A DNA stretch of 32,346 nt from Cytophagales bacterium (GTDB lineage: Bacteria; Bacteroidota; Bacteroidia; Cytophagales; Thermoflexibacteraceae), in NCBI GenBank assembly GCA_013298985.1, contig JAAFJS010000038.1, positions 1 to 32,346 on the forward strand, written 5' to 3'. The translations under genes were made by a program, and so were the position numbers. The notes beneath the pieces are model-generated. The model saw only the letters and a program-made list of their open reading frames with translations. It was not told the origin of the DNA and did not search any database. Of the stretch, positions 7,877 to 9,971 are shown in pieces. Numbering within the stretch: position 1 is the stretch's first letter; each line of letters opens with the position of its first letter.

Positions 7877-8182
7877 TTACGCGCTTGCCCTCCACATAGG
7901 CGCAAAGTGTATGGATTGAATCTTCACTTCATACATTTCACTTAACGCCTTTTCGTATTGGCGTTCCTTGTGCGCCGTACTCACCCAAAAATCCACCTGA
8001 TAATCCCCGTATTCTTGCTGAATATCATGGAGTTTCTCCAAATAAGTCTTACGCATTTTGGCATTTTCCAAGTACGGAAAAGCCACATTTTGCATTTCGA
8101 GTGCTGTGATGAAATTGCCATTTTTGCTTTTGAAAACGACAGTGATGTCGCGCGCTGTTAAATTTTGTGTCCTTGTTTCCAT
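7877..8182 (-). CDS. Small protein of unknown function (101 aa)
   Basis: I do not recognise this protein. It is a soluble, mixed-charge, 101-residue product with a likely beta-rich start (ITVVFKSKNGNFITALEMQN) and helical segments in the middle (KMRKTYLEKLHDIQQEYG and KERQYEKALSEMYEV). It has no signal peptide, membrane segment or known catalytic motif. It converges with the BASS transporter, with only 10 bases between the two stops. Its upstream region on the minus strand runs into the fold-back repeat at 8237-8372. Confidence 0.6.
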   Translation of the reverse strand: METRTQNLTARDITVVFKSKNGNFITALEMQNVAFPYLENAKMRKTYLEKLHDIQQEYGDYQVDFWVSTAHKERQYEKALSEMYEVKIQSIHFAPMWRASA

Positions 8183-8236: not shown

Positions 8237-8372
8237 TGACAATTTTTGTGCAAACTTCTTACGCCTCCCCCCACCCCCTCCAAAGGGGGAGAAAATACAG
8301 GCTGTTTTCCCCCTTTGGAGGGGGTAGGGGGAGGAAAAAGCATCAAAATAAAGTTTATCACAAAAAATGTCA
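8237..8372. repeat. Fold-back element with terminal inverted repeats (copy A)
   Basis: Outer 14-base repeats TGACAATTTTTGTG (8237-8250) and CACAAAAAATGTCA (8359-8372) pair with one mismatch. Inside lie two long GC-rich arms (8264-8289 and 8309-8334) that are near-perfect inverted copies of each other, built on CCCCCTCCAAAGGGGG-like sequence. The outer repeat matches that of the element at 15116-15225. There is no coding capacity and no clear target-site duplication. An open frame across it is not a credible gene. Confidence 0.7.
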
Positions 8373-8417
8373 TACAATCTATATTTCTTCCTTCACGAGA
8401 AAGAGTTTGAATAAATT

Positions 8418-8789
8418 TAAAAGTAAAACTGTTTTATTTTTTGACTATAAGACAAAATTAAAAGTAAAATTTTTAAAATCAAAACATTTTTAAAACTATT
8501 TCTTTTATTTCTATCATTTTGCCTTTTTTATTTAAAAGAAAAACTTTTATAAATTCACCTTTGGCAACAGTTACAGGCTTTGCCAACAGGTACGCGTAAA
8601 AAAAATTAAAAATAAAAAGATTAAAAGTCAATTTATTTCAATTATTCACTACCTTTGTAAAAGCAAAACTTTTAAATTATTTATCCCTATTTTATATTTT
8701 AAAAGAAAAAGTTTTATTTTTAGAAATTTTTAAAATTAAAACTTTTAAAAACACCTGTAACCCTATTTTATTTAAAAGAAAAACTTTTA
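8418..8789 (+). promoter_or_regulatory. Array of TAAAAG-N5-CTTTTA palindromes upstream of the XRE gene
   Basis: Within the gene-free stretch 8183-8788, three perfect copies of TAAAAG-N5-CTTTTA occur at 8533-8549, 8658-8674 and 8773-8789. A one-mismatch copy is at 8700-8716, and further half sites or compressed forms are at 8418-8436, 8459-8464, 8622-8627 and 8737-8747. The last perfect copy overlaps the ATG of the downstream regulator, and another directly follows a -7 box. The layout fits an autoregulatory operator array; an iteron-like role is an alternative. The region is very AT-rich, so chance contributes. Confidence 0.5.
8650..8657 (+). promoter_or_regulatory. -7 box (TACCTTTG) for the XRE regulator
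   Basis: Exact match to TAnnTTTG, 130 bases before the ATG at 8789. No good -33 TTG is seen at the right distance. A perfect palindrome begins one base after it, where a bound repressor would block the polymerase. Confidence 0.45.
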
Positions 8790-9127
8790 TGGACGATTTG
8801 GAGGCTATGCTCGAGCTGATTCGAGAGAGAAGAAAAGAAAAAGGCTTCACCCAAGCTGAGATGGCAGCAAAGTTGGGCATTTCTCAGAGTGCTTACAAGG
8901 ACATAGAGCTTGGTAAAACTGACCTCAAAGTTCGCACTTTGCAGCAAATTGCTGATTTCTTGGGGATTAGCTTTGTGAATGGCAAAGGCGGAAAAACTGA
9001 GCAATCACTTGTGGCGGTGAATCCTGCCAATATTTATTCTGATTTGAACCAGTTGAAGCGCAATCAGGAAGAGATGAATGAAAAATTAGATGAAATTCTC
9101 AAGCTATTTGGAAAAAAGAAGCCTTAA
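8789..9127 (+). CDS. XRE-family helix-turn-helix regulator with C-terminal coiled coil
   Basis: A 112-residue DNA-binding protein. Residues about 8-60 form a HTH_3 (Cro/C1-type) domain: LIRERRKEKGFTQAEMAAKLG, then the recognition helix around ISQSAYKDIELGKTDLKV and the closing TLQQIADFLGI. After a linker, residues 85-112 (LNQLKRNQEEMNEKLDEIL) form a coiled coil that would make a dimer. The ATG at 8789 lies inside a perfect palindrome; an alternative ATG at 8807 has GGAGG too close upstream to be a convincing ribosome site. No toxin-like partner is adjacent, so it may be a stand-alone regulator of this Bacteroidota type rather than an antitoxin. It probably represses its own gene through the upstream array. 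Confidence 0.85.
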   Translation: MDDLEAMLELIRERRKEKGFTQAEMAAKLGISQSAYKDIELGKTDLKVRTLQQIADFLGISFVNGKGGKTEQSLVAVNPANIYSDLNQLKRNQEEMNEKLDEILKLFGKKKP

Positions 9128-9272: not shown

Positions 9273-9971
9273 TTATTTTTTCTCAAAAACAATTCGTTCA
9301 TACACTTTTTCCATGGCTAATTTGATATTTACAGATGGCATTTCTACGCTTTTGTCCATGCCTTCAATCTGGTTATTTTGCCATCTGTCTTTGGTTTGCT
9401 TTATGTACTGCTCTGCTTTGGGTTCATCTTGGAAAAACATAATGTACTCTTGCAGAGAATCTATGCTACGATATTCTTCTAATTTTTGGGTTTTATCTAC
9501 TGTTTGAGTGGCAGGAGAGAGGATTTCAAATAAAACAATAGGATTTGTCAGTTGGTTTTTTGAGTTAAAGATTTCTTCTTTGGGCGTAATTACACCATCA
9601 GGATTGCGGCTTTTATCCTTGTTAGGAATAGCGAGGTCGTTAGATTCAGAATTATAAGCAAATTCATCATCTTTTAATAACTGTTTGATAATTTCCATGC
9701 TTAAATTTCTGGAAATTACTTGGTGATTTTTACTTCTTGGCATAAGGTGGTAGGATTCAATGAGTTGTAAAAAATTTTCCCAAGAATAGGCTGGGCTTAA
9801 AATAAAATCGACAAGGTCAATCGGCATTTTCTCTTGGGTATGCCTCCAATAAATCTGTCCCTCATCATACTCAAAAAAAGTCCCTTCATTCACTATTTCA
9901 CAGATTTGTTCGTACTGGGCAAAGGTATAAAGCGACAGTTTTTGCGGTTTTATTTCTGTTTTAACAAGCAT
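9273..9971 (-). CDS. Uma2-family (DUF820) PD-(D/E)XK endonuclease-like protein
   Basis: A 232-residue protein of the Uma2 family, whose fold is that of restriction-type nucleases. The nuclease core is seen as RNPDGVI (Asp125), then IVLFEILSPATQTVDKTQKL (Glu149, with Lys160/Lys163) and EYRSIDSLQEYIMF (Tyr167 and the YIMF strand). The N-terminal 80 residues carry the common region preceding the core. Length is slightly above the usual 190-ish residues. Uma2 genes are abundant in cyanobacteria and some filamentous Bacteroidota, and their cellular role is not settled. It lies alone, convergent with the XRE gene. Confidence 0.85.
   Translation of the reverse strand: MLVKTEIKPQKLSLYTFAQYEQICEIVNEGTFFEYDEGQIYWRHTQEKMPIDLVDFILSPAYSWENFLQLIESYHLMPRSKNHQVISRNLSMEIIKQLLKDDEFAYNSESNDLAIPNKDKSRNPDGVITPKEEIFNSKNQLTNPIVLFEILSPATQTVDKTQKLEEYRSIDSLQEYIMFFQDEPKAEQYIKQTKDRWQNNQIEGMDKSVEMPSVNIKLAMEKVYERIVFEKK

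Follow-up and report, generated by a model that had tools for sequence, protein, structure and literature searches.

The locus considered here lies on contig JAAFJS010000038.1 of a Cytophagales bacterium, within a window of 32,346 nucleotides (the whole stretch of DNA that was analysed). On its plus strand, 8789-9127 encodes an XRE regulator of 112 amino acids; on its minus strand, 7877-8182 encodes a divergent ORF of 101 amino acids that has no confident family in Pfam or NCBIfam and is a possible second target of the regulator. Between these two genes lies the array of palindromes that is our subject. The same AT-rich gap holds, upstream of the array on the side of the divergent ORF, an inverted repeat at 8264-8334 whose 30-base arms are 93% complementary and separated by 11 bases; it is C/G-rich, resembles a mobile repeat or a two-way terminator, and has a 16-base core that occurs only there in the window. 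Beyond the XRE gene, a minus-strand ORF of 232 amino acids (9273-9971) has no Pfam or NCBIfam family and is matched by the PADLOC model PDC-S03 (E 7.7e-13), a candidate defence-associated family.

Membership of the regulator in the XRE/HTH_3 group follows from a Pfam match to HTH_3 over residues 11-62 (E 2.2e-17; 63.3 bits against a gathering score of 23). Its Pfam matches comprise five HTH families and Sigma70_r4, with no peptidase among them. The structure model, which is of modest confidence (mean pLDDT 72, built from two sequences), contains the helices of the HTH, a poorly predicted linker at residues 64-78 and a C-terminal helix at residues 79-107, in which we read an a/d heptad pattern along the predicted helix (I82-L86-L89-Q93-M96-L100-I103-F107). 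The nearest structures returned by Foldseek include HipB proteins, SinR and C.Esp1396I, none of them at E <= 0.001; among natural proteins of solved structure, a Legionella HipB is the closest in sequence, and the best NCBIfam match, couple_hipB, scores 46.6, below its cut-off of 71.65. The protein is also matched over residues 9-111 by the PADLOC capH model (E 3.9e-10), alongside other HTH models.

Two arrays of palindromic sites

A scan with TAAAAG-N5-CTTTTA at up to two mismatches located eight sites within 8418-8789, so that the repeated palindrome proposed in a sequence-only reading of this DNA, which had counted four copies, is real and larger than was claimed. The sites form two arrays of four. 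The distal array consists of 8418-8434 (TAAAAGTAAAACTGTTT, two mismatches, the same 17 bases as site 1 of the Thermoflexibacter ruber array described below), 8459-8475 and 8491-8507 (one mismatch each) and 8533-8549 (perfect, and also returned by the genome search), with steps of 41-32-42 bases from start to start. The proximal array consists of 8658-8674 (perfect, also returned by the genome search), 8700-8716 and 8731-8747 (one mismatch each) and 8773-8789 (perfect), with steps of 42-31-42; the final base of its last site is the A of the ATG at 8789, and the palindrome that had been seen at the start codon is thus in place. A two-mismatch match at 8706 overlaps the site at 8700 and makes up a ninth count at this tolerance.

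The exact 25-base direct repeat noticed earlier (8526-8550 and 8766-8790, plus strand) and its 240-base offset were borne out on the sequence, as was the occurrence of CCCTATTTTA ahead of two palindrome copies (at 8685 and 8761). That reading overlooked that the sites make up two arrays of four with one geometry, and that the 240-base repeat gives the register between the two. The first and last sites are 115 bases apart in both arrays, and the step from distal site 4 to proximal site 1 is 125. All eight sites are coherent in helical phase (R 0.93 at periods of 10.3-10.6), a value reached by 2 of 5,000 random placements of eight sites; the true weight of this statistic is less, the two arrays not being independent of one another.

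Because this DNA is AT-rich, it had been asked of the motif that chance be tested by shuffling. When 8400-8790 (GC 18%) was shuffled with its dinucleotides kept, none of 5,000 shuffles reached the observed counts at any tolerance: 3, 7 and 9 sites were found at up to 0, 1 and 2 mismatches, against shuffle means of 0.002, 0.07 and 0.75. Over the whole window at up to two mismatches there are 11 sites against 6.6 expected, and 5 of 100 shuffles reach 11; this excess is weak because it is entirely local. Nor is the motif as common in other AT-rich gaps, for the 1,900 other window bases that fall in 100-base tiles of at least 75% AT hold no site with two or fewer mismatches. A looser test that counted any palindrome gave little support and was unused (the window's count of 8 was reached by 1 of 60 shuffles and T. 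ruber's count of 4 by 9 of 60).

A search of the 6.06 Mb draft genome, of which the window is contig 312, gave five exact copies of the palindrome, three of them in 8418-8789, and five pairs of palindromes starting 29-44 bases apart, all five inside the array (none for the control pattern). At up to one mismatch there was no enrichment genome-wide, with 94 places against 189 for a reversed control pattern, and the T. ruber genome was likewise unenriched (118 against 154). The array is a feature of a single locus, and no wider regulon is evident from these counts. The other XRE genes of the same genome (L002-L008) have no convincing array.

Conservation of the spacing among homologs

The same XRE gene is present on NZ_FONY01000015.1 of Thermoflexibacter ruber, which we infer to be the same-genus genome of our set (G002, locus L009). 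The two proteins are 75% identical and have their start codon and first residues in common. The T. ruber array has sites at 1371, 1412, 1444 and 1485 of L009, giving steps of 41-32-41 and a first-to-last distance of 114, and its site 4 ends on the A of the start codon, as does proximal site 4 in the window. Two extra copies lie upstream, at 1322 (one mismatch) and 1341 (two mismatches); with these included, the six sites are less in phase (R 0.59 at a period of 10.5, and at best 0.89 at 10.25). The regulator's neighbours in T. ruber (1914-2966) are genes for a SiaC family phosphoprotein and a DUF6272 protein, and the window neighbour on the matching side has no Pfam family.

Alignment scores were 111 between the distal array and that of T. 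ruber, 60 between the proximal array and that of T. ruber, and 67 between the two window arrays. None of 300 shuffles reached any of the three, the best shuffle coming near the last of them (62 against 67). At site positions the distal array matches T. ruber in 62 of 68 cases and the proximal array in 57 of 67; at other positions the matches are 51 of 77 and 42 of 62. By alignment, the single T. ruber array appears closer to the distal than to the proximal window array, and we read the pair as an old duplication of the array in the lineage of the window.

Homologs were sought in 390 genomes of the order and, at the different taxonomic levels, in samples of 390-395 genomes each. At the level of the order, three homologs at E <= 1e-13 were found beyond the two Thermoflexibacter genes. 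Two of these three, in genomes G179 and G192, belong to one genus of another family and align over most of the protein, with 35-38% identity to the window protein (37-38% pairwise, 35% in a five-row alignment). Their upstream palindrome differs from that of the window, being TACTG-N5-CAGTA, and, counted from the start codon, its copies lie at -149 (one mismatch), -106 (three), -75 (one) and -34 (two). The steps are 43-31-41 and the first-to-last distance is 115 in both genomes. At three mismatches G192 has two further matches (-234 and -141) and G179 has none. Between G192 and G179, 56 of 60 site positions match, as do 82 of 99 others.

A palindromic motif finder that was given no spacing recovered 43-31-41 for G192, recovered the window steps, found the T. 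ruber steps within a longer set, and for G179 found the steps together with one extra site, at -55, inside the last step. When four non-overlapping sites are placed at random, steps within one base of 42-31-42 arise in 3e-5 to 1.3e-4 of draws, a figure for an agreement that was noticed before it was tested and that covers two lineages (Thermoflexibacter, and the genus of G179 and G192) plus one internal duplication. Because the genes share ancestry and the agreement was noticed beforehand, we take it as evidence of kept geometry and not of repeated invention. Counted from the centre, two positions distinguish the half-sites (AAAG as opposed to ACTG or AATG). In the recognition-helix region the difference is at residue 34, which is S in Thermoflexibacter and N in G179 and G192, and which presumably corresponds to Q29 of the 434 repressor. 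We judge that selection or common descent has preserved the four-site geometry, since it recurs in two distant homologs whose operator sequence is a different one. This suggests that the conserved spacing contributes to the way in which the regulator turns its own gene off.

We also looked for further arrays upstream of other homologs. The search without spacing input covered 62 upstream regions, then 32 (25 new identifiers), then 30 (25 new identifiers), roughly 110 in all, several places being represented twice; one region, L029, was left out as too short. Apart from the window, T. ruber and G192, and from G179 with its extra site, no region gave steps within one base of 42-31-42, and we saw no convincing further array of this geometry in those regions. 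Repeat scores taken alone were unspecific, with 18 of the 62 regions beating all 25 of their shuffles. When the scan was told the steps, 8 of 58 upstream regions had a score that 100 shuffles did not reach: G179, G192, the window and T. ruber at z 7.2-13.6, and L033, L021, L064 and L077 at z 2.7-4.9. We find these last four unconvincing: the site sets of L033, L021 and L064 do not resemble one palindrome, and L077, on a virus contig, has real palindromes with other steps (34, 40, 25, 32). A later scan of the same kind added two regions that beat all 40 shuffles: L120 (42-31-42, z 3.4), a candidate at the place of L064, and L118 (42-30-42, z 4.8), the place of L011, which is a stretch of three-base periodicity and unconvincing.

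The case of L083, a paralog in G192 with 26% identity, is less clear. Two perfect AGTTG-N5-CAACT palindromes lie there with a spacing of 31 bases, where sites 2 and 3 stand in the window, without sites 1 and 4. Its scores are insecure, being reached by 8 of 25, 6 of 40 and 0 of 40 shuffles without spacing input and by 17 of 40 in the scan that was told the steps.

Several other arrangements came to light. The XRE-type gene on the virus contig L077 is preceded by five palindromes resembling AGTTAC-N5-GTAACT. An XRE gene from another genus of the window's own family (L015, 1360-1500) has GTTATT/AATAAC palindromes with steps of 22-22-61, the last of which begins on the final G of a TATCTTTG box. 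In L010 (1096-2753), four small XRE genes stand in a row, with short ORFs on the opposite strand, next to a gene that by eye reads like a DNA cytosine methyltransferase. In the published literature we found no title or abstract opening that describes the present array, subscription journals being mostly outside the coverage of the search.

Predicted promoters and other readings of the array

The accessible portion of a study of a Flavobacterium (PMC9723704) gives the Bacteroidota -7 box as TAnnTTTG, at -12 to -5. Such a match, TACCTTTG, lies on the plus strand at 8650-8657. It had been described as followed by a palindrome after one base; the box is there, and the gap is not, as the palindrome at 8658 abuts it directly. 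The predicted start falls near 8662, inside proximal site 1. In T. ruber a box with one mismatch, CATTTTTG, lies at 1476-1483, one base from site 4, which would put the start near 1488, with 13 bases left to the ATG. The TAAATTTG of G179 and G192 lies three bases before the ATG and the last site just upstream of it, so that there the whole array is upstream of the -7 box. The position of the array relative to the promoter therefore varies, the predicted start lying on site 4 in T. ruber and on proximal site 1 in the window. TAnnTTTG is a common pattern, with 36 occurrences on one strand of the window, and each single match is weak. We recognised no -33 element by eye in the window or in T. ruber, and the distal array has no exact plus-strand box between 8217 and 8649. 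On these predictions, the proximal window array and the other three arrays lie on or against the promoter of the regulator's own gene.

Our preferred reading, autorepression from these sites, has to be weighed against others. The array might also, or mainly, control the divergent gene at 7877-8182, as a two-way switch like that of phage CI/Cro or RcoLS20, in which case the distal array would serve the divergent promoter. The pair of genes is kept in T. ruber (43% identity for the divergent ORF) although the next genes on both sides look different, and distal site 2 is touched by a TAATTTTG box that reads on the minus strand, at 8460-8453. Given the frequency of TAnnTTTG, however, one box in an AT-rich gap is weak evidence; the T. 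ruber gap has none on that strand, the hairpin at 8264-8334 would stand in the way of such a transcript, and the divergent ORF was found in only 1 of 58 other genomes searched, and we consider control of this gene improbable. Iteron-like sites had been suggested from the sequence. On a wider version of that reading, which draws on the distant relatives, the palindromes would be iteron- or centromere-like and would serve a mobile element in its replication or partition, the XRE protein binding to them. The G179 and G192 XRE genes adjoin a gene of 304 amino acids without a Pfam family; a related gene (32% identity, E 2e-26) lies beside L083 on contig L145, which carries the G192 paralog. The corresponding L145 ORF narrowly misses the cut-off for Rep3_N (21.7 bits, the cut-off being 22.4), and has ParA, coupling-protein and DUF5712 genes nearby. 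The XRE homologs L054, L055 and L083 lie next to genes related in this way. On L145, the L083 XRE gene and the possible initiator gene are divergent, with palindromes in front of both. These plasmid features were seen on L145. In G179 and G192 the XRE gene stands between the array and the possible initiator gene; L083, the weaker case, has the sole palindromes that share a gap with such a gene. At the window itself no initiator gene was found beside the repeats, with no replication family in the five neighbours tested (three of them without any Pfam family), and candidates appear only near distant relatives. We give the iteron-like reading a slight chance. Distant matches of the 304-residue protein occur on two Persicobacter plasmids, and relatives of the regulator may travel on plasmids, a claim that does not extend to G179, G192 or the window. 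A phage or plasmid origin of the window gene was not borne out by database searches. Plasmid records matched were one with the window protein as query and two with that of G179, none covering 80% of the query; virus contigs gave 10 and 4 relatives, the best at 33% over residues 7-97, and none for the G179 protein.

The composition of the gap invites two simpler readings. With a GC content of 18% and A- and T-rich sites in phase with the helix, the region could be a set of phased A-tracts acting as curved DNA or as a promoter-upstream element, the palindromes being a by-product that the XRE protein does not bind. Against this, dinucleotide-keeping shuffles do not make the sites, other AT-rich tiles of the window lack them, and G179 and G192 keep the spacing with ACTG/CAGT half-sites, which are not A-tracts; the chance that we allow this reading is slighter still than for iterons. 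Chance alone, toward which only the weak whole-window excess at two mismatches leans, is refuted at the level of counts by the local shuffles, and at the T. ruber locus, where none of 200 shuffles reached the palindrome count of 11; we regard it as virtually discounted. Since the geometry was kept while the operator letters changed, both chance and bare A-tract bending are poor explanations.

Proposed mechanism and known systems

We think it probable that the XRE protein, as dimers, occupies four helically phased operators in a cooperative manner and so represses the promoter of its own gene, and that the array has been duplicated here. Each 17-base palindrome would be bound by one dimer. The four sites, about 42, 31 and 42 bases apart, would form one unit, with dimers on the same side of the helix at intervals of about 4, 3 and 4 turns; because the sites face the same side, neighbouring dimers could touch, perhaps through the predicted C-terminal coiled coil, and bind cooperatively. 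Once occupied, the array would overlap or adjoin the promoter, and in two cases, the window and T. ruber, it would reach onto the start codon as well; from this position the protein would shut off its own gene once enough of it had been made. The duplication would have left the proximal copy with the exact -7 box and the start codon, and the helical register of the two window arrays would make bridging between them possible. The earlier proposal of a multi-site autoregulated switch is supported in its autoregulatory part, to which the abutted -7 box, the site on the start codon, the T. ruber array and the same spacing in two distant homologs all point; its switch part, meaning bistability or a second regulated promoter, finds no such support here.

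More tentatively, and as an extension that we think rather less likely to be right than wrong, a group of small Bacteroidota XRE proteins might form a defined four-dimer complex on DNA, with a mirror-symmetric 42-31-42 geometry that would be conserved more strongly than the sequence of the operators. The sites would be re-lettered through the recognition helix (for example at residue 34, S or N) while the scaffold stays, and plasmids may carry some of the versions.

Autorepression by small HTH proteins from several operators is well known, and gene control in the Bacteroidota is, in our judgement, less studied. The lambda CI repressor is an autoregulator that binds several 17-base operators cooperatively, with closer operator spacing. 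The window likewise has several 17-base operators ahead of a putative autoregulator; it differs from the CI case in that its XRE protein, of 112 amino acids with one predicted C-terminal helix, has no C-terminal peptidase/oligomerisation domain, and in that no cro-like divergent gene was recognised. SinR and C.Esp1396I belong to the same HTH fold group and are DNA-bound repressors or controllers, a similarity confined to the HTH; neither a SinI nor a restriction-modification partner was recognised among the neighbours tested.

A close parallel is HipB. As described in the accessible portions of two reports (PMC3920265, PMC3376134), autorepression by HipB at the E. coli hipBA promoter involves cooperative binding to four operators. 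It is a small XRE repressor with four palindromic operators at its own promoter, as is proposed here, and HipB proteins are among the nearest in fold and give the best NCBIfam match; four palindromic sites at the regulator's own predicted promoter were found in the window, in T. ruber and in G179 and G192. The HipB operator is TATCC-N8-GGATA, and the O1-O2 step, counted on an oligonucleotide given in PMC3376134, is 28 bases and not 31 or 42. The window protein also falls short of the couple_hipB cut-off (46.6 against 71.65), and no hipA-like gene was recognised beside its gene: the next large ORF, 9273-9971, is on the opposite strand and has no Pfam family, and the T. ruber neighbours are the SiaC and DUF6272 genes.

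RcoLS20 of plasmid pLS20 is a second parallel, as an Xre-family regulator with two operators of several motifs each. According to the portion of the report available (PMC4207663), these operators lie 75 bases apart and are bound cooperatively, a 5-base insertion between them destroys regulation, from which its authors infer looping, and the protein represses its own promoter at high concentration and activates it at low. The same portion gives an eight-base motif, CAGTGAAA, where the window has palindromes, and describes tetramers and control of conjugation genes; no conjugation genes were recognised in the window, where the divergent gene is a single 101-residue ORF and not a conjugation operon. 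The layout at our locus resembles the HipB and RcoLS20 control regions, without the other defining features of these systems that we tested. What is distinctive here is that the spacing was kept while the proteins diverged to 35-38% identity and the palindrome sequence changed. The locus and its relatives thus offer a natural experiment in which operator specificity drifts while a presumably cooperative assembly is held, and they provide two protein/operator pairs to swap.
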